Source of the DNA: Paenibacillus oralis
GTDB taxonomy: Bacteria > Bacillota > Bacilli > Paenibacillales > Paenibacillaceae
Length of the DNA stretch: 64,000 bases
Assembly: GCF_003863965.1 (NCBI RefSeq)
Contig: NZ_RRCN01000001.1
Span: 6,755,071 to 6,819,070 of the forward strand
Reading direction: 5' to 3'
The position numbers and the translations under genes were made by a program. Under the pieces are notes generated by a model. It was not told the origin of the DNA. It saw only the letters and a program-made list of their open reading frames with translations, and did not search any database. Shown here in pieces: positions 5,444 through 62,267 of this stretch. Each line of letters begins with the position of its first letter. Positions within the stretch are counted from its first letter, which is position 1.

Positions 5444-5499
5444 ATTGAATTTGATCTCCTTTTGATCTCCTTAATTGATATCAGGTTCAGCGCCCGCGA

Positions 5500-6930
5500 T
5501 TAGTTCAAAGCTTTGACGGCTTCCTGGGCGGCGATGCGCCCGAACGTTACGATGTCGGCCAGCGCGTTGCCGCCGAGGCGGTTGGCGCCATGAACGCCCC
5601 CGGTAACTTCGCCTGCCGCGTACAGATTGGGAATCACGGCACCCGATTCGTTCAGCACCTCAGTCTGGGTGTTGATCGCCACGCCGCCCATCGTGTGGTG
5701 GATTCCCGGCGTCACCTTGATGGCGTAATAGTTCCCTTTCGTAAAGTCAAGCCGCATGTCGTCCCGCTGGAAATCTTCGTCAGCACCTTTGTTTTTCATG
5801 TCGGCGTATCGTTTTACGCTTTGTTCCAGCGCAGCGGCATCGACACCGATTTTGGACGCCAGTTCCGCAACTGTTTGCCCTTCCTCAACCAAGCCCATTT
5901 CAAAATACGTCTCGGTTGCGCCCAAATTTTGACGCAACTCGTCATTAAAAATCAAGTAAGCGATACCGTCTTTTTGCGCCAAGATATTTTGGGATACGAC
6001 GTCCCGCGTCAGCAATTCGTTCGTAAACCTCGCCCCTTCCTGATTGACCAAAATCGCTCCGTCGCCGCGCACCCCCTCGGTGATCAGCACGCCTTCACCA
6101 GGAATCGTTGTCGGGTGGATTTGAATCTGTTCCATGTCCACCAGCTTCGCTCCAAGCGCCTGGGCAAGCCCGATGCCGCTGCCTTGCGCTCCCGGCGCAT
6201 TGGTCGTCGTGAATCCCTGCAGTTCGGGTTTGTATTTAACAACCATGTCCAAATTGGCCCCGAAGCCGCCCGTGGTTAAAATAACCGCCTTGGCGTCGAT
6301 AGAAAAGGTTTTGCCGTCCTTGTCCGTCCCTTTGACACCGCTCACCTTACCATCCTTGTCCGTCAAGATTTCCGTCACTTCGTGCTGCAGCCGGACATCG
6401 ATTTGCAATTCCTCCAGTTTCTTTTTCAGAGCCACAACGATAAAGTTCCCCGCCGCTTCGCCGCCTTCAGGTCTATGGATGCGCGGAACGCTGGCTCCGC
6501 CGGCCTTTCCGACTTCCGACAACTCCGCACCGTTCTCTTTCAGAAATTCCACCGAATCTTTGGCATTTTCCGTCAGCACTTTGACCAAATCGGGATTATT
6601 GAGATTTTTGCCCCCTTTCATCGTGTCTTCAAAATGAAGTTCCGGGCTGTCTTCGATCCCTTGAGCCTTCTGGTATTCGGTACCTGCCGCGTTTAAGCCG
6701 CCTTCCGCGCGAACCGTATTCCCGCCGACCATCGGCATTTTCTCCAGCAATATCACCTTGGCCCCCAAACTTTGCGCTTCGATGGCCGCCGTCATTCCGG
6801 CTCCACCGGCACCGATGACGACAATGTCCGCGGAGTCTCCGCTTTTTCCGCCGCAGCCCGGCAAAATCAACATTGCCGCCAAGACTATGGCCAGCATTTT
6901 CGGCGCCCAAACTGTCTTTGTGCTTTTCAT
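5500..6930 (-). CDS. Secreted flavoprotein reductase (fumarate/urocanate reductase-like), lipoprotein
   Basis: A 476-residue FAD enzyme of the flavocytochrome c / soluble fumarate reductase family. The signal peptide ends in LPGC, so it is probably a lipoprotein outside the membrane. The FAD-binding motif is VVIGAGGAGMTAAIEA, with VILLEK closing the first Rossmann unit. Active-site candidates are all present: QIHPT, FTNELLTRD, GIHHTMGG and GGVHGANRLGGNA, which correspond to the His/Arg set that binds and reduces fumarate-like substrates. There is no heme domain; the FMN lipoprotein downstream probably supplies the electrons. The substrate could be fumarate, urocanate or another enoate. The ATG at 6930 is preceded by GGAGAGGG. 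A predicted Rex operator lies 50 bases upstream. Confidence 0.85.
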   Translation of the reverse strand: MKSTKTVWAPKMLAIVLAAMLILPGCGGKSGDSADIVVIGAGGAGMTAAIEAQSLGAKVILLEKMPMVGGNTVRAEGGLNAAGTEYQKAQGIEDSPELHFEDTMKGGKNLNNPDLVKVLTENAKDSVEFLKENGAELSEVGKAGGASVPRIHRPEGGEAAGNFIVVALKKKLEELQIDVRLQHEVTEILTDKDGKVSGVKGTDKDGKTFSIDAKAVILTTGGFGANLDMVVKYKPELQGFTTTNAPGAQGSGIGLAQALGAKLVDMEQIQIHPTTIPGEGVLITEGVRGDGAILVNQEGARFTNELLTRDVVSQNILAQKDGIAYLIFNDELRQNLGATETYFEMGLVEEGQTVAELASKIGVDAAALEQSVKRYADMKNKGADEDFQRDDMRLDFTKGNYYAIKVTPGIHHTMGGVAINTQTEVLNESGAVIPNLYAAGEVTGGVHGANRLGGNALADIVTFGRIAAQEAVKALN

Positions 6931-6979
6931 CTCGAATTCCCTCTCCTTTTCTGGTTGCAAGCCTTTCATTCAAGAAACA

Positions 6980-6997
6980 TTGTGCAATATTTCACAA
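6980..6997 (-). promoter_or_regulatory. Predicted Rex (NADH/NAD-sensing repressor) operator
   Basis: On the minus strand the sequence is TTGTGAAATATTGCACAA, an imperfect palindrome matching the Firmicute Rex box TTGTGA-N6-TCACAA at all but one position of the arms. A possible -10 hexamer TACAAT (complement 7003-7008) lies just upstream, so the site would cover the transcription start of the reductase. An Fnr-type reading (TGTGA-N6-TCACA) fits equally well in the core. Confidence 0.6.
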
Positions 6998-7083
6998 ATG
7001 TAATTGTAAGAGGAAAATCTGAGTTCGGCCAGCTTATGTAAGTACAGAAACCGATAAGTAAGTAATGTAAGCACGCCGTCTTT

Positions 7084-7791
7084 TTAAAAATACAGGGAAA
7101 CCATGCTGGATTTTTCCGGCACAGTCCAGAACTTATCGAGCGGCCTGCCCCCGGTTCCGTAATTGATCTCCGTTTCGAGCGCGCCGATGCCCGCCAGAAA
7201 ATCAAGGTATTTGCGCACGGAAACGCGGGAGATTCCGACAGCCCGGGACAGCTCATTCGTCGAGAACCCCGAGCTGTCCTGCCGGGCAATCGCCTCCCAG
7301 ACCATCTGCAGAGTCCCCGAGGTCAGCCCTTTGGGGAGAGGACGGAATGCGGCCTGACGATCGCCGCGCCAGATCAAACGGTCAACATCGTTTTGGCTCA
7401 TCACCCGACACGAATTCATCGCATGGTACGAATCGCGGTACAATTCCAGCGATGTTTTGAACCGCGAGAAATGAAACGGTTTGATCAGATAGTCAACTGC
7501 GCCGTACCGCCGTGTTTTTATAATGCTTGCCGGATCCCTGGCGGCCGAAATGATAATGACATCGATATTTTGGGCGCGGCTGCGGATATAGTTAAGCAAA
7601 GCGAAGCCGTTCTGCCGGCGCATGTACAACTCAAGCAAAATCAGCTGCGGTTTGACCCGTTCCACCAGCCGTTTGGCCGTTTCGGCCGACTCCGCCGTAC
7701 CCACGCAGCGGAAACCTTCCACCAGTTCCAGGTAACTTTGGTTGAACTTCGCCACCATCGGATCTTCTTCCACGATCAAGACCCGGATCAT
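7084..7791 (-). CDS. CitB/DcuR-type response regulator with Glu in place of the phosphoacceptor Asp
   Basis: A 235-residue response regulator: a receiver domain (residues 1-120), then a C-terminal winged helix-turn-helix of the CitB class (STNELSRAVGISRVSVRKYL). Acidic pocket residues are present in VEEDP, and the conserved Lys in KPFHFSRF. The expected phosphoacceptor position reads LILLELYM, with Glu54 instead of Asp (codon GAG), which suggests phosphorylation-independent, perhaps constitutive, activity. Family members control uptake and use of C4-dicarboxylates and citrate, which fits the reductase gene next door. The ATG at 7791 has AGGAGG seven bases upstream. No sensor kinase gene is nearby. 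Confidence 0.85.
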   Translation of the reverse strand: MIRVLIVEEDPMVAKFNQSYLELVEGFRCVGTAESAETAKRLVERVKPQLILLELYMRRQNGFALLNYIRSRAQNIDVIIISAARDPASIIKTRRYGAVDYLIKPFHFSRFKTSLELYRDSYHAMNSCRVMSQNDVDRLIWRGDRQAAFRPLPKGLTSGTLQMVWEAIARQDSSGFSTNELSRAVGISRVSVRKYLDFLAGIGALETEINYGTGGRPLDKFWTVPEKSSMVSLYF

Positions 7792-7993
7792 ATGGCCGCC
7801 TCCTTTGGCGCAAACGGAAAGTTCAAAATAAACCGGGTGCCGGTTGTTTGCAGACGGAATTTTGTTCTTCTCATCATGTTGCTTCCTCCCGTCGGTAAGC
7901 ATGTCCATAAACTTATTCTACCGAGGGGCCGGAAAAATGGCTATGAGGTTAAGTACTCCGGATGGGGGAACCTGAAATCGGCAGGACCCAAAC

Positions 7994-8055
7994 AAAAACG
8001 CGCGGGCGTAAAGGAGTCCTTTCTTGCAGAACTCCCTCCGCCCGCGCGTGTTTTT
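7994..8055. terminator. Strong bidirectional terminator after dnaJ
   Basis: An 11-bp perfect stem, ACGCGCGGGCG (7998-8008) with CGCCCGCGCGT (8039-8049), is flanked by five A on one side and five T on the other. It ends the hrcA-grpE-dnaK-dnaJ transcript on the minus strand. Confidence 0.85.
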
Positions 8056-8060
8056 CCTTA

Positions 8061-9182
8061 TTATTCGCCGCGAAACGCCCGTTTCATGCGGTCAAAAAAC
8101 GTTTGTTCATTTTCATGCGTAGCTTCGCCTTCCAGCGAAGCGAATTGGCGCAGCAATTCTTTCTGCTCTTCGCTCAGCTTTCGGGGCGTCATCAAAACCA
8201 CTTTGACGTGCTGATCGCCCTGGCCGACGCCGCGCAGTCGCGGAATCCCTTTGCCTTTCAGGCGGAAATACGTGCCAGTCTGCGTGCCGGCCGGAATCTT
8301 CAGCTTCACCTTTTCCGACAGCGTCGGAATTTCGATCTCGTCGCCAAGCGCGGCCTGCGCAAACGTAATCGGCACTTCCAAATAAACGTCGTCGCCTTCC
8401 CGCTCGAAGTACTCATGAGCTTTCACGCGGATCACGATATACAAATCGCCGGGAGGGCCTCCGCGAAGTCCGCCTTCCCCTTCGCCCGTCATCCGCAGTT
8501 GGGCGCCGTCGTCAACCCCCGCCGGAATCCGGACGTGGATTTTACGCTGCTTCTTGACCTTGCCGCTGCCGGAGCAGGTTGGACATTTCTCCTTGATGAT
8601 CTGCCCCCGGCCGCCGCAGGCCGAGCAGGAACGCCGGTTGACCATGCGGCCGAAAGGCGTGTTCTGCACGACCTCCTGCTGCCCGGTTCCGTGGCAGACG
8701 GAGCAAACCGTCGGTTTGGTTCCCGGTTTTGCGCCGGTGCCGGAGCACGTATCGCAGTTTTCGGTACGCGGGATCGAAATATCGGTTTCTTTCCCGAAGG
8801 CCGCTTCCTCGAACTCGATCGTCATCGTATATTGCAAATCGTTCCCCCGCTGCGGCGCGTTCGGGTCGCGTCTGCCGCCGCCACCGCCAAAGAACATATC
8901 GAAAATATCGCCAAATCCGCCAAAATCCGTACCGGAAAATCCGCCGCCCATGCCCTGGTTCGGATCCACATGTCCGAATTGGTCGTAGCGGGAGCGTTTG
9001 CCCTGATCACTGAGGACGTCATAGGCTTCCTTCACTTCTTTAAACTTCGCTTCCGCATCCGCCGCTTTGTTCACGTCCGGGTGATATTGACGGGCCAGCT
9101 TGCGATAAGCTTTTTTGATCTCCTCTTCGCTGGCGGTTTTCCCGACGCCCAACACTTCATAATAATCGCGTTTTTCTGCCAT
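8061..9182 (-). CDS. dnaJ: Chaperone DnaJ
   Basis: J-domain co-chaperone that stimulates DnaK ATP hydrolysis and delivers clients. It has 373 residues: a J domain with HPD (in YHPDVNK), a Gly/Phe-rich linker, the zinc-finger domain with four CxxCxGxG repeats ([32 protein letters not shown]), and the C-terminal client-binding domains. The start chosen is ATG at 9182 ([12 protein letters not shown]), preceded by GGTGGAAGG; an upstream in-frame extension has no family match. It is the last gene of the heat-shock operon and is followed by a strong terminator. Confidence 0.97.
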
Positions 9183-53315: not shown

Positions 53316-54731
53316 TTAAAACAAAGGCGAAAATAGACGAGCGAATGCTTCTTTGTACTTTTGGAGCTGCGGACGTTTTTCATATTGGGATAATTCAATT
53401 TCCTTGCTTGCACTTAGATCCCTACAGAAATCACGAACTAACTGGTTAACGGTCTTCCCGTCATAAAAGATCGCATTCAATTCGAATTGTCCACAAAAGC
53501 TGCGATTATCCATATTGGCTGATCCGGAGCACGCCAGATCATCGGCAATGACCACTTTCGAATGAATGAACCCTTTCTCATATAAAAAAAAGCGTGCCCC
53601 GGTTTGCAGCAATTCCTGGATATAGGACAAAGAAGCCAAGTAAACGACTTTTGAATCTGGAACAGCAGGCAATATGACCTTAACGTCAACTCCACTGATA
53701 GCAGCTGTTTTCAATGCCAAGATGACCCCGGGCTCCAGCACGAAATAGGGCGATTCAATATAAATCCTTCTCTTAGCGGAAACGAAGCAGGAGAAAAAGA
53801 GGTTGAGTATCGGTTTATCCGGACCGCTTTTTACGATTTGAACCCATTCTTTCCCCTTACTTTCTTGAAGCGGATAGTATTCTGGGTCGGCCAGTAATAT
53901 ACCTTTCACGAAATACCAATCGGTCAGAAACGTATATTGAATCCACCAAACCGCATTACCTTCGATACGGAAATGAGTGTCCCTCCAGTAGCCGATTTTC
54001 GGATCTTTCCCTAAATATTCATCCCCTATGTTTAAACCGCCAAAATACCCGATTCTGCCGTCCACGACGACAATTTTCCGATGGTTTCGATAATTGAGAC
54101 TTCTAGTAAAAAAAGAGATTAACGGAGGTGAAAAGCATCCAGTTTCTACACCGGCCTCGTGTAATCGATTCACAAAAGACTTTCTCAACTTATGAGAGCC
54201 GATCCCATCATACATCAGCTTTACTTTAACTCCTTCTTTGGCCTTTTGGATCAACAATTGTTGAAAGCGAAAGCCGAGCTCATCGTCACGGATAATATAA
54301 AATTCGATATGAATATGGTGCCTGGCCAAGGAGATGGCCTGCAGCATATCTTCAAAGGCTTCTTCCCCTGCCGCGTACACAGTCGTTTCATTGCCGACGG
54401 CAACAGGGAAGGATGCCGCGTGTTCCAGTATCGAATGTATCCTGTCATTAGGCAAAGCTGCAGGGTTTACTCCCCCTTCGATCCGCTGACGTTCGCAACG
54501 CTCTGATAAATGTTCTCTAACTTGCTCCAGCCTGATGTGATCTGCCGGATTTATTGGGCGTTTGAGGATATATTCTTTTCCTATAAAAAAATAAAGCAAA
54601 TAACCGAACAACGGAAATAAGAACAAGATGACAACCCAGGTGACCGCTTTATATGGGCGCGAATATTCAAAAATTACCACTGCGGCAATTTGGAAAACCA
54701 ATAATAAAAGAGCTAAAATAATCCAAATCAA
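53316..54731 (-). CDS. cls: Cardiolipin synthase
   Basis: A 471-residue phospholipase D-superfamily enzyme that joins two phosphatidylglycerols into cardiolipin. Two N-terminal membrane helices (residues 1-55) are followed by two HKD motifs: NHRKIVVVDG and IHSKVVIADD (HxKxxxxD). FYIIRDDELG and GGLNIGDEYLG are also typical. TTG start; GGAGGTGA is about 13 bases upstream, rather far, so the exact start is uncertain. The gene stands alone on the minus strand. Confidence 0.92.
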   Translation of the reverse strand: MIWIILALLLLVFQIAAVVIFEYSRPYKAVTWVVILFLFPLFGYLLYFFIGKEYILKRPINPADHIRLEQVREHLSERCERQRIEGGVNPAALPNDRIHSILEHAASFPVAVGNETTVYAAGEEAFEDMLQAISLARHHIHIEFYIIRDDELGFRFQQLLIQKAKEGVKVKLMYDGIGSHKLRKSFVNRLHEAGVETGCFSPPLISFFTRSLNYRNHRKIVVVDGRIGYFGGLNIGDEYLGKDPKIGYWRDTHFRIEGNAVWWIQYTFLTDWYFVKGILLADPEYYPLQESKGKEWVQIVKSGPDKPILNLFFSCFVSAKRRIYIESPYFVLEPGVILALKTAAISGVDVKVILPAVPDSKVVYLASLSYIQELLQTGARFFLYEKGFIHSKVVIADDLACSGSANMDNRSFCGQFELNAIFYDGKTVNQLVRDFCRDLSASKEIELSQYEKRPQLQKYKEAFARLFSPLF

Positions 54732-54866
54732 TGATTTAGTCTCACCTCCAAAGTAAAGGGTATCACAAGTCCTTATGTATTATTCATTTTGCATAATTCA
54801 ACTTTATTAGGACATAATTTTGTTGGAAATCCCGAAAAACCCCAACAGGAGGATGAGATCAACTCC

Positions 54867-55481
54867 ATGTATCTGGCTCCGCGATTGTACCACTCTGTTG
54901 TTCGCCCGCGATGGTTTACCGAAAGATATATTCACGACCATATAAAAAGCCATTTCGCTATGGATAATAAAATGGTTCTTGATTTTGGCTGCGGCACCGG
55001 GGCAAATTGCTGCATGAGTCCTGTCGATAAGTATTATGGCATCGATGTCAATTCGAAGAGAATCGAATTTGCTAAGCGGTTGTTTCCGAACTATACATTT
55101 ATGGCATTCGACGGGAAACGTATCCAAATACCGGATCAAACGGTTGATCTCATATTGATTGTTGCAGTTCTTCATCATATACCAAACGAGCTTATCAGCC
55201 ACTATTTACATGAGTTCCGTAGGGTTTTGAAGCCTGAAGGGAATGTGGCTGTCATTGAACCTTATTTATGTCAGAAAAGCAAATTCAATAATTGGTTTAT
55301 GACCCGATTTGACGACGGAAATTATATCCGAAATGAGGACGATTACCTTCGGTTATTTATAAATCAGCAGTATGACTGTCGGGTGTTGAAAAAATTCAGA
55401 AAGTGTTTTCTATATAACGAGGTCTTTTTTACTGCCAAGCCTAAAGGAAATTCTTCAACAAACTACAAACAATTTCAATAA
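54867..55481 (+). CDS. Class I SAM-dependent methyltransferase
   Basis: A 204-residue protein, MYLAPRLYHSVVRPRWF, with motif I VLDFGCGTGANC, the acidic residue of YYGIDVNSKRI, and VDLILIVAVLHHIP and FRRVLKPEGNVAVIEP, as in the Methyltransf_11 group. The substrate is unknown. The frame extends 26 residues upstream to a TTG without a ribosome binding site; the ATG at 54867 has GGAGG about 14 bases upstream and fits the family N-terminus better. Confidence 0.8.
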   Translation: MYLAPRLYHSVVRPRWFTERYIHDHIKSHFAMDNKMVLDFGCGTGANCCMSPVDKYYGIDVNSKRIEFAKRLFPNYTFMAFDGKRIQIPDQTVDLILIVAVLHHIPNELISHYLHEFRRVLKPEGNVAVIEPYLCQKSKFNNWFMTRFDDGNYIRNEDDYLRLFINQQYDCRVLKKFRKCFLYNEVFFTAKPKGNSSTNYKQFQ

Positions 55482-55557: not shown

Positions 55558-57198
55558 TTATATCCTCTGAACGTTCTGCTGGTTTCTTCGGAGTTCAATC
55601 CCCGCTGTGAATCTCGCCAAGCCGTATACCCCATTCGCTGCCGTACAAGCGACGACGTGTCGGTTTGCCCGCAGCGGATCGGCGAATTTTGAAAAGTACT
55701 TCTTATGCTGGAGCCCGTCGGCCGTCAGCTTTTTTTGCTCCAAGGCCGCTTCGAATTCCCTCTGGGCCACCTGCTTCGCTTTAAACAGCATCATCTGTAT
55801 GCGGCTGTATACATTGATCGCTCCGTCCCCCGTCGTTTCGATCGGCAGAAAGATCGCGTCGGGGTATCTTTCGGTGATCAGCGATTGCACCCCGTCGGAA
55901 ACGCCTGAAGAAGGCATGCAGCCGAAAGGCTTGACCGAAATGGTCATGTTTACTTTCCGCTTCACAACGTTCAAAATCAGCTTGCCGACCTCCATATGCC
56001 CCTCTCCGCCGCGCACCTGGTTATTGTAGTGTTCATGGGCGGCGCGGGCGATCTCCTCCATGTCGGGAAGGTGGTAGCCCCGAAGGCCGATCGATTTAGC
56101 ATAGGTTTGAAACAGGACGCGAACGGCGCGATCCGCGAGCCATAACATGCGCAGCCGCGAGTGCGGCTTTTTCCCTTTCAGGCCATGCTTCCCGCCGTCG
56201 GCTTCGCGCAGGGAGATTCGTTTGAGCGTATCGTAGCGCGCAGCCCAGATGAGGAATAAAATCCAGGCTGTCATCGACTGTACCTCCACCTCAGCCCCCT
56301 CGCTTTCCAAAAAGCGCTGCAGTTGATAGTTCCCGTCACCCTCGGTCGTCATCGCCCAAAACTCGCCGATAATGCTCACCTTCGGCTTGACCCGGGTACG
56401 GTCCACGCGCACGGCACGCAGTTCTTTGCGGCAGCGGAGCAAAGCCGGAACCAGCCGTTTCCGCTCGCTTAAGGCTTCATACAATAGCCGTTTGCAGCGT
56501 TCCAACGCGGCGTCCGTCGCGCCTTCTTCTACCTCATAGGGACGAATCCGGTAAGCCAGCGCATTCAGAATGTCTCCCAGCAAAATGGCTTTCAGAAAAC
56601 CGATAAAAAACGAGACATCCAGCTTCAGCGCCGATTCGCCGCCGGTCGCCTGCTTCAGGCCGTCCGTCTGTTGGAACAACAGCACGCGAAAACCGTCGAA
56701 CCCCGCGTCCCGCAAGGCCTTCCGGTACTCCGTCACATAGGTGCCGAAGCGGCAAGGACCGCAGGATCCGCTGCTCACGAACAAGTAATTGCCAACGATC
56801 TCTTCCTTGGATTTGCCTTCCACATCGCGAAGGTAGCATAGGTACTTAATCAAATTGCCAACCGTGAAATACGTCGGGTTGCATTGCCCGCGGTTGCCGA
56901 ATTCCTTGCCGTAGCGCAGCGACTCGTTGTCCGGACATTCCATATGCCTTATCCGGTACCCGAGCCCTTTCAACGCCCCCTCCGTCAAATAATCCTGGGC
57001 CATTGTCAGCCCTCCGAACAGAATCGTCGTGGCGGCTTTGTCTTTGGCCAAAAACTGGCGCGGTACGGGGTCAAACCAATGCTGTTTAGCCTCTTGATCC
57101 AGGCCCAGCAATTTTTCCTGCTCTTTTTGATACTCCGCCAGAATGTCCTCGATAGAGGACGGTGCGGAGGGTTTAATTTTTCTTTTGGCAACAGCCAT
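55558..57198 (-). CDS. 2-hydroxyacyl-CoA dehydratase D-component-like protein
   Basis: A 546-residue protein of the HgdA/HgdB-like (2-hydroxyglutaryl-CoA dehydratase) superfamily, which binds iron-sulfur clusters that receive electrons from an ATP-driven activase. Candidate cluster cysteines occur in NRGQCNPTYF, SSGSCGPCRFGTY and KPFGCMPSSG. It is longer than HgdA/HgdB (about 400-480). It starts 22 bases after the activase gene, so the two form an operon and probably a complex. The substrate is unknown; no acyl-CoA metabolism genes are adjacent. Confidence 0.82.
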   Translation of the reverse strand: MAVAKRKIKPSAPSSIEDILAEYQKEQEKLLGLDQEAKQHWFDPVPRQFLAKDKAATTILFGGLTMAQDYLTEGALKGLGYRIRHMECPDNESLRYGKEFGNRGQCNPTYFTVGNLIKYLCYLRDVEGKSKEEIVGNYLFVSSGSCGPCRFGTYVTEYRKALRDAGFDGFRVLLFQQTDGLKQATGGESALKLDVSFFIGFLKAILLGDILNALAYRIRPYEVEEGATDAALERCKRLLYEALSERKRLVPALLRCRKELRAVRVDRTRVKPKVSIIGEFWAMTTEGDGNYQLQRFLESEGAEVEVQSMTAWILFLIWAARYDTLKRISLREADGGKHGLKGKKPHSRLRMLWLADRAVRVLFQTYAKSIGLRGYHLPDMEEIARAAHEHYNNQVRGGEGHMEVGKLILNVVKRKVNMTISVKPFGCMPSSGVSDGVQSLITERYPDAIFLPIETTGDGAINVYSRIQMMLFKAKQVAQREFEAALEQKKLTADGLQHKKYFSKFADPLRANRHVVACTAANGVYGLARFTAGIELRRNQQNVQRI

Positions 57199-57220
57199 GG
57201 TCGAACCACTCCTTGTGAAT

Positions 57221-60200
57221 TTATATCGCTCCAGCCTGCTTATCCTGCTTCACCCCCAGAAGTTCCGCGCGTTTTTGCTCCAGACGCTGCTGCAGCTCGG
57301 CTTTTTTGCGGGCCAGGTCCTCAAGGCGCTCCTCATGAAGCCCCAGGCTGTGGGCGTACGTTTTGACCCGGATCTTGATCGAGCCCCCCGGCTTGTTGGC
57401 ATCGATCTCATGCAGCGCGGAGTATGGGGTGCCGGCGGCGCTGATGATCGAATCGATCAACCCGTAGGTCGGCGCGTCATGGCCGCATTTGAAGCTGGAC
57501 AAGTCCAGCACCGCCACGTTCGGATGACGCGCAGCAAATTTGGCCGCCCATACTTTTTGCACGCTGTTGGAACTGAAATTTTCCGGCCACACATCGCTGA
57601 CTTCAAGCGCATATTGGACCCGCCCGCTCGTTAGATCGCTTGCGAAAAAGCGGCGCAGCCAGGCTTCGTCTTTGGGAATGGAGCGCATCGACAGAATAGG
57701 ATAGCCGAGCACCTGGAACTCTTCGAGCACGCCGTGATTCAGGCCGGGATCGGAATGGTAAGGCCGCCCGATCATCAGAATGGCCAGACGGTTTTCCCGT
57801 TCGACCTGCTCCAGGATCTGGCGCCCCTTCTCCTGCATCTCCGCGTCGAACAGCTCCAGCGCTTTCCAAGCCTGCTCCACGGCAAAATCGCTTTCGTCCT
57901 CGGTGATCTGCAGATGTTCGGCAAACGCCTCATATAGCTGCCTTTTCATTAGATTCCGTTCGATGAACGTCACCGCCGGATCGAGATAGGCGATTCCGCG
58001 CGCGGCAAAGAAATCCACTTCCTTGGTAAAGGCAGCTTTGATCACGTTGGGAGCGCCGGCTACAATCGGACAGCTGGTCGAATCCATTACGTTGTTCAGA
58101 TGCGTCGGGATATGAGTGATGCACGGAAAAAAGACGTAATCCAGCGCTTTTTGCTCATGGTGCTTAAACAGCAGGTTGTGCACGTGGGCCTGGGCCACCT
58201 TCGACGGATAACACGGGTCGATCGAACCGTATTTACCGCCTTCCTGCCACATTTCCTCGCTCGTATGGTCGCTGAACACGATGTTTTTTCCGCCGATGCC
58301 CAGCGTCTCGAAATACGTCCGCCAAAAAGGCGCCGTCGACCAAATGTTCAGCACGCGGGGAATCCCGATCCGGATTCGGGCACGCCGCTCCATCGCCTCG
58401 GCGGAAGAACGCGCAAACCGGCGCCCGCCGGGCTCGGCGCGCTTACCCAACAGTCCCAGGAGGCCGTGTTTGTGCCGGGCGTCCTCCGCCTTCGGCTGCG
58501 CTTGGGGCAATGGCTCCGGATCGTAAAAATGCTGAAACATCCGGCGCGCCTCGTATTCGACGAGATTAGGGTAATGCTTTTTCAGCTCCTGGCGCTCTTT
58601 GGTCAATTTGACGACCGCTTCCTGATCCTCCACCGTTCCCTTTTCGCAGGAGAAGCCGGATATGTAACGGGCGGTTTGGCCGTCCGGCGTCTCGGAGTCG
58701 ATAAAGGTGCGGCTGCAGTGGTTGGGGCAGAAATTGCAGCGGGTCGATTCGTCGTTGCGGCTGGTATAGCGCAGATGGATCGCGGAATCCAGGCCCAAAA
58801 AGGTGGAATATCCCCGCCGCTTGACCACGCGCAGCGTCTCCATTGCCGCTCCGATGGCGCCCGCTTCTCCCGGATGCGGATGAACGTAAATTTCCGCATC
58901 AGGGACCCGTTGCTTAATATAATCGACCTGGGCCTTGACCGCGGCCAGATTATACTGAGTGCCTCCCTGTAACACGAATTTGCGGCCAAGTTCGGCCATC
59001 CGCGGAATCTGCACGACGTATTGCCATATGTTTTTCGGCAGGACGAGGGCGAGTCCGGCCAGCAATTCCTCTTTGGAATATCCCTCTTTCTGGAAATTCA
59101 CACGATCCGCGTCGAGAAACACCGCGCAGCCGTAAGAAAACTTGGGGCTGAGATCGGCGTTAAAAGCCGTATCCGCGTAACTCTGAACCGGAATGCCGAA
59201 CTGGTCGGCCATCGCCTGCAGCAGCATCCCGTTTCCGGCCGAACATTGATTGGACAGCTTAAAGTTTCGGATGTCTCTGTTTTTCAAAAAGAGCACCTTG
59301 ATATCCTGTCCCCCGATGTCGCAGATGACGTCGATATCTCCGAATTGGTGAACGGCGCTCATCATATGGGCTACGGTTTCGACGATGTTGACGTCCGCCT
59401 TCAACGTTTTTTCGAGAACATCCGCGGCGTATCCCGTAGCGCCGAAGCCAATAATCTCCAGCTCGGCCCCCTGTTCCCGGACCTTGCTATGGATGCGCAG
59501 CAGCATTTCCTTTGTGTCTTCCAGCGGGTTCCCCTTGGAAAGCTGGTATTCTTTCAGCAGGATGCGGCCGCGTTCATCTACCAGAACGGCTTTGGACGAA
59601 GTGGACCCGCCGTCCAGGCCAATCACCGCTCGCACTTGCTGTCCCGGAACGAACACGGCCGGCTCAAACCGGGGAATGCTGTAATTCCGGCGGAATTGCT
59701 CCAGTTCCTCATCGGTCTCCACCAAGGGAGGACCCGCTTTCTCGCCGAGCTTGGCTTTACGCCCGTGGGCGATAAATTCCTTCAGCCCTTCCAGTCCCTG
59801 ATACACCCCGACGTCCGCCGGTTCGTGAAGGCCGTACAGCACGGCTCCGTAAGCGGCGTAATACTGTGAATTGTCCGGCACAAAAATCAGGTCCTCAATC
59901 GGCACATCCTTCGGATAATCGTATCCCCGTTCCCGCCAGGTCTGGGGTATCCGCTGCCTCCAACATTCCTGCAGGAAAGGCAGGTAAGTATTCGGCCCTC
60001 CCAGGAGAAGTACGCGGTGGCGTAACGTATTGCCGCGGGTAAGCACCGACAGATTCTGCATCACGATCGCATCCGCCAGCGAGCACATGATTTCCCCAGA
60101 AGGAATGCCGCTCTTTACCAGATTGACGATATCCGTTTCGGCGAATACCCCGCATTTTGCGGCTACATGATGCAATTTCGAAGCGTCAAAATGCAGCTTG

Positions 60201-60694
60201 CCCACCTCTTCCATAGGCATCCCCACCTTGATCATGCATTTATCGATCGTGGCGCCGGTGCCGGACGCGCATTTGTCGTTCATGGACGTGATCGCCTGCT
60301 TGTTTCCCGTCTCCTCGTTTTCCTTAAATATGATGATCTTCGCATCCTGGCCGCCAAGCTCGATGACGCTCCCGACATCGGGATGCAACCGCTCCACCGC
60401 CATGGTGAGCGCGTTGACTTCCTGCACGAATTTCGCTCCGATATGCGGAGCGATAGGCCCGCTGCCGGAACCTGTCGCGAAAACGCGAACGTTCTCTTTC
60501 TTGACGTCCGGAAACTCGTTGCCGATAGCGACCAAGAGCTCCATCACCTTCTCCGCCTGCTTCGTATGATGGCGTTGATAGTCCGACCAAAGGATTTCTT
60601 TGCTGTTCGTATCCACCACTGTTGCTTTGACTGTGGTTGAGCCAACGTCGATACCGATAATCAAGGAGCCCGCCCCTTGGTCGATATAACTCAT
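57221..60694 (-). CDS. Double-ATPase acyl-CoA dehydratase activase-related protein
   Basis: A 1157-residue fusion. Two BadF/HgdC-type actin-fold ATPase domains: domain 1 (about 10-290) with IIGIDVGSTTVKATVVD, NDKCASGTGATIDKC and AAKCGVFAETD; domain 2 (about 355-640) with AVIGLDGGSTSSKAVLVD, NQCSAGNGMLL and SYGCAVFLDADRVNF. In each, one or two Cys would hold a shared 4Fe-4S cluster. A DUF2229-like region with CNFCPNHCSRTFID and a C-terminal HgdB-like part (IGRPYHSDPGLNHG, FKCGHDAPTYGLID) follow. It would use ATP to push electrons to very low potential. ATG at 60694 (MSYIDQGAG) has AAGGGG upstream; a GTG six bases earlier is worse. Confidence 0.85.
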   Translation of the reverse strand: MSYIDQGAGSLIIGIDVGSTTVKATVVDTNSKEILWSDYQRHHTKQAEKVMELLVAIGNEFPDVKKENVRVFATGSGSGPIAPHIGAKFVQEVNALTMAVERLHPDVGSVIELGGQDAKIIIFKENEETGNKQAITSMNDKCASGTGATIDKCMIKVGMPMEEVGKLHFDASKLHHVAAKCGVFAETDIVNLVKSGIPSGEIMCSLADAIVMQNLSVLTRGNTLRHRVLLLGGPNTYLPFLQECWRQRIPQTWRERGYDYPKDVPIEDLIFVPDNSQYYAAYGAVLYGLHEPADVGVYQGLEGLKEFIAHGRKAKLGEKAGPPLVETDEELEQFRRNYSIPRFEPAVFVPGQQVRAVIGLDGGSTSSKAVLVDERGRILLKEYQLSKGNPLEDTKEMLLRIHSKVREQGAELEIIGFGATGYAADVLEKTLKADVNIVETVAHMMSAVHQFGDIDVICDIGGQDIKVLFLKNRDIRNFKLSNQCSAGNGMLLQAMADQFGIPVQSYADTAFNADLSPKFSYGCAVFLDADRVNFQKEGYSKEELLAGLALVLPKNIWQYVVQIPRMAELGRKFVLQGGTQYNLAAVKAQVDYIKQRVPDAEIYVHPHPGEAGAIGAAMETLRVVKRRGYSTFLGLDSAIHLRYTSRNDESTRCNFCPNHCSRTFIDSETPDGQTARYISGFSCEKGTVEDQEAVVKLTKERQELKKHYPNLVEYEARRMFQHFYDPEPLPQAQPKAEDARHKHGLLGLLGKRAEPGGRRFARSSAEAMERRARIRIGIPRVLNIWSTAPFWRTYFETLGIGGKNIVFSDHTSEEMWQEGGKYGSIDPCYPSKVAQAHVHNLLFKHHEQKALDYVFFPCITHIPTHLNNVMDSTSCPIVAGAPNVIKAAFTKEVDFFAARGIAYLDPAVTFIERNLMKRQLYEAFAEHLQITEDESDFAVEQAWKALELFDAEMQEKGRQILEQVERENRLAILMIGRPYHSDPGLNHGVLEEFQVLGYPILSMRSIPKDEAWLRRFFASDLTSGRVQYALEVSDVWPENFSSNSVQKVWAAKFAARHPNVAVLDLSSFKCGHDAPTYGLIDSIISAAGTPYSALHEIDANKPGGSIKIRVKTYAHSLGLHEERLEDLARKKAELQQRLEQKRAELLGVKQDKQAGAI

Positions 60695-60917
60695 GAACAC
60701 ACCCCTTACTTCAATTCATTTACAATTTAAATTGCACAAAAATAGTGACATTTATCACCCAAGATAATGTTCATAATAAATTTCCAATTATCCGCTGGAT
60801 TGCATCATTTAAATGTGCGAAGAAACAATCCTACTTGTGAAAAATTTCATATCCCTTTTCTATGAAATTTGAAATATAATAAAAAGATATTTATAAAAAT
60901 AAAATTGGGGGAGCACT

Positions 60918-62267
60918 ATGAAACCATCACAAAATAACCCAGTGCAGGGAAGAAACGACCGTTTTTCCTCAACTGGTTTTATATTGGCCGCCATCGGAAG
61001 TTCCGTGGGTCTGGGCAATATGTGGAAATTTCCGTATATTACGGGCGAAAACGGAGGCGCCGCATTCTTTCTGCTGTTCATCGTCTGTTTGGTCCTGATC
61101 GGCTTGCCTTTGCTTTTGGCCGAACTGGCTATCGGAAGAGCAGGCAGAGGCAGTGCATCTACGTCCTTCGTAAAAGCCGGCGGGGCCAAAATCTTTGGTC
61201 AACTCGGTTTGCTGCAGGTGATCGCGCCTTTTCTTATCCTGACCTTTTACGTCATCGTTGCCGGCTGGACACTCCATTATGCCGTGCAGTCCTTCAGCGG
61301 AGCGCTATACAGCAATTCCGACTATAGTGGACAATTCAGCTCGTTTTCCCAAGGCTACATGCCGATCATTTGGCAGGCGGCGGCTATCCTGATCACCGGG
61401 TTGGTTGTGGGTAAAGGGATATCCGGAGGTATCGAAAAATTCAACAAAGTGCTGATTCCCGGCCTGATCATTCTCCTGATCGTATTGATGATCCGTGCCG
61501 TAACCTTGCCCGGAGCCGGAGCTGGCGTATCCTTTTTTCTCCAGCCCGATTTCTCGAAATTAAGCCCGGAAGCGGCATTGGTAGCGCTCGGACATGCCTT
61601 CTTCTCGCTGTCGCTCGGGATGGGTATTCTGCTTACCTACGGAGCTTACGTGGACAAGCGTCAATCTCTAGGTACGGCCACTCTCGCGATCGGAACCGGA
61701 GACTTGATCTATGCGTTTATTGCGGGGCTGATTATTTTCCCTACAACCGCTTCATTCGGCATTCAGCCCGATGCGGGTCCGTCCCTTGTTTTCATCGCGC
61801 TTCCTGCCGCATTCTCGGCGATGCCGCTGGGCGCATTCTTTGGCGGGCTATTCTTCGTGTTGCTGGCGATAGCCGCATTAACTTCCTCGGTTTCACTGCT
61901 TGAAGTACCCGTATCCTACGTCATGGACCGTTGGGGCTGGGGGCGTGTGAAGTCGGTAGTAATCATCAGCATATTAGTGCTGCTGGTCGGACTTCCTTCC
62001 GTCTTGTCCTTTGGAATCATACCGGCATTCACGGATATGGGCGGTAAAACGTTCTTTGACTGGCTCGATTTCATCACATCGAATATTCTGCTGCCGATCG
62101 GCGGCCTTATTACTACAGTCTTCGTAGGATATTTCTGGAAAAACGCTGCGGAAGCCGCCGGGCTCAAAGCGGGCTGGTTCCGGGTATGGCTGTTCATGGT
62201 GCGGTATATCGCTCCGGTTCTCGTGTTCCTGGTACTGCTGCATACGACCGGAATTCTTAAATTTTAG
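60918..62267 (+). CDS. Sodium-dependent amino-acid transporter (NSS/SNF family)
   Basis: A 449-residue symporter with about eleven membrane helices, like LeuT and MhsT. The sodium and substrate site in TM1 reads AAIGSSVGLGNMWKFPY; the GENGGAAFF end of TM1 and SLSLGMGILLTYGAY in TM6 fit. The substrate is probably a hydrophobic or aromatic amino acid. ATG with GGGGGAG upstream. Single-gene unit with a strong terminator. The 217 bases before it hold only AT-rich sequence without a clear promoter. Confidence 0.93.
   Translation: MKPSQNNPVQGRNDRFSSTGFILAAIGSSVGLGNMWKFPYITGENGGAAFFLLFIVCLVLIGLPLLLAELAIGRAGRGSASTSFVKAGGAKIFGQLGLLQVIAPFLILTFYVIVAGWTLHYAVQSFSGALYSNSDYSGQFSSFSQGYMPIIWQAAAILITGLVVGKGISGGIEKFNKVLIPGLIILLIVLMIRAVTLPGAGAGVSFFLQPDFSKLSPEAALVALGHAFFSLSLGMGILLTYGAYVDKRQSLGTATLAIGTGDLIYAFIAGLIIFPTTASFGIQPDAGPSLVFIALPAAFSAMPLGAFFGGLFFVLLAIAALTSSVSLLEVPVSYVMDRWGWGRVKSVVIISILVLLVGLPSVLSFGIIPAFTDMGGKTFFDWLDFITSNILLPIGGLITTVFVGYFWKNAAEAAGLKAGWFRVWLFMVRYIAPVLVFLVLLHTTGILKF

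Follow-up and report, generated by a model that had tools for sequence, protein, structure and literature searches.

The 64,000-nucleotide stretch of Paenibacillus oralis analysed here (the window) carries, at positions 55,558 to 60,694, a pair of genes, A and B, whose products probably act as a reductase that converts the ester bonds of phospholipids to ethers when oxygen is limiting. By their sequences they are of the PlsA/PlsR/Ger type, in which they would form a separate and deep clade. New here is a lineage of cardiolipin synthase that accompanies the pair and hints at membrane lipids as its target. The genes and the parts of their products are:

57221-60694, minus strand: gene A (large), an open reading frame call, 1157 residues from ATG
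55558-57198, minus strand: gene B (small), an open reading frame call, 546 residues
Protein A, from about residue 11: activase 1, with C142 and C181
Protein A, residues 357-620: activase 2, with C484 and C523
Protein A, C653-x2-C656-x3-C660...C683: four-cysteine segment
Protein A, Pfam 775-1005 and extending beyond C1070: DUF2229, putative reductase lobe, with C828, C875 and C1070
Protein A, residues 1103-1156: long C-terminal helix in the predicted model
Protein B, residues 51-475: putative second reductase lobe with a fold like that of the benzoyl-CoA reductase/2-hydroxyacyl-CoA dehydratase (BCR/HAD) superfamily, with C106, C149 and C427, and C146

Gene A lies 22 bp upstream of gene B on the same strand. 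AAGGGG stands 7 bases before its ATG, and an alternative GTG start two codons upstream would give 1159 residues. Protein A matches PF01869 (activase) in two stretches and PF09989 (DUF2229) at 775-1005, all far above the cut-offs, which agrees with the sequence-only reading of this DNA, in which a two-activase, DUF2229 protein of 1157 residues was paired with one of 546; its statement that no acyl-CoA genes are near also stands for the seven neighbouring proteins scanned. For protein B, neither Pfam nor NCBIfam gave a match at E 0.001, nor did the PDB sequences at E 1. Gene A is the single DUF2229 match in the source genome (8.1 Mb, 4 contigs) and accounts for two of its seven PF01869 places; among the other five only one, in a frame of 333 codons, exceeds the cut-off, the remaining four falling short of it.

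Together, A and B have the make-up of PlsA/PlsR: two PF01869 domains and PF09989, with a second reductase behind them as a separate gene or a further domain. According to published accounts, the plasmalogen synthase PlsA/PlsR and the glycerol ester reductase Ger act on phospholipid ester bonds (PMC13274423, PMC12838417, PMC11150832). PlsA-PlsR of Clostridium perfringens is encoded by a two-gene operon of about 4.2 kb, and PlsA of Enterococcus, Lactococcus and Bifidobacterium by a single open reading frame (PMC12838417); plasmalogens are reviewed in PMC9702350. The Ger proteins of Thermotoga maritima and Desulfatibacillum alkenivorans are described as built alike (PMC13274423, PMC11150832, PMC8788747), Ger being a PlsA homologue with two activation domains (PMC13274423), which A also has. 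Ger of D. alkenivorans, an organism that produces ether cardiolipins, is a single protein of 159 kDa (PMC11150832), unlike our two-gene pair. Protein A is collinear over nearly its full length, and B over about residues 45-480, both with fused PlsA-like proteins (1403-1481 residues) and with two-gene operons (products of 975-1006 and 421-485 residues), at identities of about 28-31% for A and 23-27% for B. Both genes of such operons were seen at five loci (L171, L172, L173, L175 and L176) and only the A-type gene at two (L170 and L174), while L177 and L178 gave a weaker match to A (25-27%) and none to B. This collinearity makes PlsA/PlsR and Ger the closest characterised relatives by architecture, where the sequence-only reading had named a range from acyl-CoA dehydratases to double-cubane reductases. 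Nor does the reaction appear as wholly unknown as it had proposed: the relatives act on phospholipid esters, and the neighbourhood in the Paenibacillus group also points to phospholipids.

The likeness extends to the cysteines, of which 14 (11 in A, 3 in B) are common to all aligned rows of the clade and the PlsA/PlsR-like proteins. The three of B (C106, C149 and C427) are held in common with 11 PlsR-like rows; C146 of B is confined to the clade, as are C153, C458 and C244 (in an insertion) of A. Among 30 clade rows of B, four cysteines are found in 30/30, C235 in 27/30, C88 in 25/30 and C256 in 23/30. The cysteines of the pair can place clusters. This full set of conserved candidates and the two fused activases argue for ATP-driven low-potential electron transfer of the BCR/HAD superfamily, as the sequence-only reading had suggested. 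The HgdB-like part that it had seen holds at the level of the fold for the 546-residue protein: the best 20 Foldseek matches of B are all chains of double-cubane-cluster proteins (DCCPs), 2-hydroxyacyl-CoA dehydratases or class I benzoyl-CoA reductases (E 8e-5 to 0.04, probability 0.66-1.00), and the predicted model thus appears to have the superfamily fold, with modest TM-scores of only 0.26-0.51. The Foldseek list for protein A is dominated by activases and ASKHA kinases and is uninformative on DUF2229; its activase domains resemble HgdC and HadI. A profile comparison of the DUF2229 lobe with protein B found no match (probability 0.3%), and we gave up the idea that the two are homologues. 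We picture two lobes because of the description of PlsA (Red1/Red2, in a figure legend of PMC12838417) and the cysteine pattern.

These fold matches bring in two other kinds of enzyme. A double-cubane-cluster reductase such as DCCP with its activase DCCP-R, acting on acetylene, azide or hydrazine, would suit the presence of DCCP among the best fold matches of B and the nine cysteines of the window's own protein B. However, BzdN has six ligands (PMC11971306) and only the four invariant cysteines of B are set against them, the six-cysteine double-cubane set not being conserved throughout the clade; moreover, DCCPs are homodimers (PMC11971306), whereas the pair has two different lobes and two activases. 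We give this reading almost no chance, and hardly more to a 2-hydroxyacyl-CoA dehydratase or benzoyl-CoA reductase, which would belong to the same superfamily and have the activases that resemble HgdC and HadI. PF06050 (HGD-D) matches neither B nor anything else in the source genome, the neighbours scanned offer no acyl-CoA gene, and the NCBIfam equivalog models for benzoyl-CoA reductase activases score far under their cut-offs (115.8 vs 578, 100.4 vs 380.2 and 98.4 vs 312.85 bits). BzdNOPQ, MbdONPQ and 2-hydroxyisocaproyl-CoA dehydratase with its activator are like the pair in their activase and BCR/HAD folds, but they have separate subunits and acyl-CoA substrates, and the pair fails their family models. 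Both readings were discarded on cysteines, family models and context.

In the mechanism that we infer for an ester-to-ether reductase, the two activase domains of A would pair within the protein as a pseudodimer around one [4Fe-4S] cluster (C142, C181, C484 and C523). Driven by ATP hydrolysis, low-potential electrons would pass one at a time to two reductase lobes, the DUF2229 part of A (C828, C875 and C1070) and B (C106, C149 and C427), each with a three-cysteine cluster that may have an open iron site. There the fatty-acyl ester carbonyl of a glycerophospholipid would be reduced, with loss of water, to a vinyl ether (plasmalogen) or an alkyl ether. Which of the two is made cannot be told from sequence; Ger and PlsA are today indistinguishable in this way, and no sequence signature of alkyl-ether formation is known according to PMC13274423. 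The neighbouring cardiolipin synthase, if dedicated, would make or use the ether phospholipid as cardiolipin, and in Paenibacillus Fnr may switch the genes on at low oxygen.

To follow the pair, one genome per GTDB species was scanned with protein B, and the best 80 of 362 relatives were kept: 51 from Bacillota, 24 from Myxococcota, 2 from Pseudomonadota, one each from Planctomycetota and Nitrospirota and one unassigned. Identity to the window's proteins across these loci is 62-92% for the large and 56-85% for the small protein. At 76 of the 80 loci gene A precedes B on the same strand at a distance of under 700 bases; of the four exceptions, L119 and L152 start near a contig edge, and L118 (a second, cut copy) and L158 are without A. 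Such conservation of the gene pair is far above chance. The B family is scattered in the window's order, with 16 of 149 genomes matching at E 1e-30 (the source genome and a short remnant in genome G466 counted). Among 59 near genomes 24 match B: ten (the source genome included) have the close kind at at least 75% identity, and 15 have a relative at 25-29%, which in 13 cases lies in an open frame of 1405-1472 codons. The two kinds occur together in genome G028.

A quick tree by maximum likelihood was built from 96 A-type proteins, the clade rows being complete, stop-free and 1120-1270 residues long. In it the 64 clade members form one group with a Shimodaira-Hasegawa-like approximate likelihood-ratio support (SH-aLRT) of 100. 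This group is joined to a PlsA-like group of 30 by a branch of 2.62 changes per column, with L177 and L178 outside both and a root that is unsure owing to long branches. The pair, found in Bacillales and Myxococcota, is thereby set apart from PlsA/PlsR in a clade of its own rather than inside the PlsA-like clade, in a tree that has no experimentally proven PlsA or Ger. So long a stem could mean that the clade reduces some other lipid-borne group (for instance one within a head group, an acyl chain or a lipid of the polyprenyl type) with the same machine, the cardiolipin synthase then pointing to membrane lipids generally. In keeping with this, A is about 150 and B 60-125 residues longer in the clade than in the two-gene PlsA/PlsR-like proteins; a PF01663 phosphodiesterase, a methyltransferase or a cyclopropane synthase lies near some loci; and a fused PlsA-like protein coexists with the pair in two genomes, G028 and that of Bacillus sp. 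B15-48 (L117). The candidate cluster cysteines and the gene order nevertheless match the PlsA/PlsR-like proteins, and we regard another lipid group as unlikely.

Several details of single loci may be added. The fused proteins of Haliovirga and Collinsella (L181 and L182) branch together beneath the other PlsA-like proteins on long branches, and directly behind the Collinsella gene is a TetR-family regulator. Anaerobacillus loci L126, L127 and L129 hold a divergent copy of the pair (65-71% identity); L126 and L121 are from the same strain, which hence has two copies. At L228 (G406, 5476-8918) the matches to gene A are split over two overlapping frames (872 and 277 residues), in which sequencing error, pseudogene and frameshift are indistinguishable.

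The second line of evidence for a phospholipid substrate is the neighbourhood, in which these genes of the window are of interest:

53316-54731, minus strand: cardiolipin synthase, of a lineage found beside the pair or its remnants; probable functional partner
54789-55481, plus strand: S-adenosylmethionine-dependent methyltransferase, convergent with gene B and 77 bp from it; possible partner
60918-62267, divergent from gene A: sodium-dependent (SNF family) transporter, with the same intergenic region and its palindromic Fnr-type box

The cardiolipin synthase, which went unmentioned in the sequence-only reading, forms the largest neighbour cluster apart from the pair itself (19/85 loci). It lies within 1 kb of the pair in 16 of the 51 Bacillota loci (some flanks being cut by contig ends), all of the Paenibacillus group, where this makes 16/23 loci, or 17/24 with the window (830 bp away); this neighbour, like the clade-specific cysteines, distinguishes the pair from PlsA/PlsR. 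The 16 synthases are divergent upstream (11), tandem downstream (4) or convergent (1), and L084 and L107 have a second copy. A synthase clade of 18 unites 14 of the 16 with the window's, the two second copies and that of L083 (6.9 kb off), apart from two other synthases of the source genome, while L103 and L128 represent a second lineage. As a control, the window's synthase was searched against the 149 genomes (limit E 1e-140): it is found at 55-100% identity in six, all among the 16 pair-carriers, with the next best match at 50%. Several genomes of this control recur among the 80 loci, which makes the two counts dependent on each other. Of the six, G466 (L225, 5579-11229) has a complete A and a B cut to about 92 residues with a fragment of a second cardiolipin synthase directly behind it, an arrangement that looks like the outcome of a deletion. 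G407, scored as pair-less, has broken synthase pieces (58-67%, below the limit) beside a 114-residue remnant of A, in a decayed cluster (L221, 7186-13130) of methyltransferase, synthase in two pieces, A piece and then a PF01663-family phosphodiesterase. Because this remnant lies beside the broken synthase, we tie the synthase lineage to the pair or its ruins.

No conserved neighbourhood was found across the whole clade, and no conserved neighbour outside the Paenibacillus group. A self-contained pair of this kind could be a reductase of some small or non-lipid substrate with no fixed pathway and with coincidental neighbours. That the synthase lineage lies beside the pair in three arrangements, and among the 149 genomes occurs at at least 55% identity only in pair-carriers, argues against coincidence, and we find a non-lipid substrate decidedly unlikely.

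Regulation by oxygen is suggested by two candidate sites within the 223-bp region upstream of A:

60744-60759, minus strand: Fnr/Crp-type box GGTGATAAATGTCACT, 50-65 bases upstream of A, one mismatch to TGTGAN6TCACW
60836-60851, no strand assigned: second, palindromic Fnr/Crp-type box TGTGAAAAATTTCATA, one mismatch, in the region common with the divergent transporter gene

The window has nine matches to TGTGAN6TCACW at one mismatch where 3.29 are expected, and 1/100 shuffles had as many. Perfect TGTGAN6TCACA boxes stand in 6/48 upstream regions of the pair (L081, L082, L083, L084, L086 and L107; expectation 0.01). They lie 63-84 bases ahead of a reference point near the start codon, set 16 codons upstream of the DVGSTT motif; at up to two mismatches, boxes occur in 14/48 regions against about 5 expected and a largest shuffle of 11. 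Patterns for Rex, Fur and NsrR were found in 0/48 regions. A short sigma-E-like pattern (12/48) is too degenerate to mean much and is without a control, and recurrent 9-mers reach 8/48 vs a shuffle maximum of 7. The source genome encodes a Crp/Fnr protein with a C-terminal cysteine pattern (L193), as in Bacillus Fnr, and another with an N-terminal one (L191), as well as two anaerobic ribonucleotide reductases, because of which the organism is probably capable of anaerobic life. Paenibacillus, Cohnella, Brevibacillus and Aneurinibacillus are mainly aerobic genera.

A number of observations weigh against an ester-to-ether reductase. The long stem (2.62), with the low identity to PlsA-like proteins, leaves room for a change of substrate, and our PlsA-like anchors are genomic proteins and proteins of Listeria, Haliovirga and Collinsella whose annotation says no more than dehydratase or activase, none being an experimentally proven PlsA or Ger. 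The cardiolipin synthase is found in 0/28 other Bacillota and 0/29 non-Bacillota loci, and many of the Paenibacillus-group loci that have it are interrelated. The six perfect boxes are all from Paenibacillus, three of them in close relatives, each of the window's own boxes has a mismatch, and nine fused PlsA-like genes of the order (L071-L079) have no box at up to one mismatch. According to published work, no ether lipid resulted from Ger2 of D. alkenivorans in E. coli (PMC11150832), and no plasmalogen was made by some lactic acid bacteria that have plsA homologues (PMC12838417). Among the papers listed, none links Paenibacillus with ether lipids or plasmalogens beyond incidental co-mentions.

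The literature that we searched has no statement on this clade or its function, and no known substrate for a close orthologue was seen in it. The genes themselves may already have been seen by others, as published counts of Ger homologues may include some of this clade. A published table has Mss and Ger homologues together in five Paenibacillaceae species and one Bacillaceae species (PMC13274423), and at a threshold of 30% identity Ger homologues were counted in 61/347 Myxococcota, 14/23 Nitrospirota and 53/684 Planctomycetota metagenome-assembled genomes (PMC11868695). For an acidobacterium, PlsAR homologues have been proposed, as untested, to form the ether bonds (PMC10087280).

More tentatively, and with the odds rather against the picture as a whole, a third clade of ester-to-ether reductases with its own cardiolipin synthase (in some genomes also with the methyltransferase and phosphodiesterase) might build ether cardiolipins in spore-forming, largely oxygen-respiring Bacillales at low oxygen, with related chemistry in Myxococcota, Nitrospirota and Planctomycetota. 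If so, an enzyme of a type sensitive to oxygen could supply mainly aerobic genera with ether phospholipids, and one cardiolipin synthase lineage would be specialised for ether phospholipids. The clade would serve as a sister group for working out what determines vinyl-ether vs alkyl-ether formation, and would bear on which bacteria make the ether lipids of soil and water that are used as temperature proxies (PMC13274423).

The remaining neighbours are less closely bound to the pair. Homologues of the methyltransferase occur in 10/16 pair genomes vs 10/133 others, elsewhere in the genome in 7 of the 10; being enriched in pair genomes but not exclusive to them, it was rejected as a dedicated partner. 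The PF01663 phosphodiesterase lies within 2 kb of the pair in 8/51 Bacillota loci, and together with the methyltransferase it is also found in pair-less genomes (L216, L217 and L219), L216 having in addition a cardiolipin synthase nearer to the second lineage (62% to that of L103). In two Bacillota metagenome-assembled genomes, a cyclopropane fatty acid synthase follows downstream of the pair on the same strand (PF02353, L123 11790-12941; 96% identical in L124).

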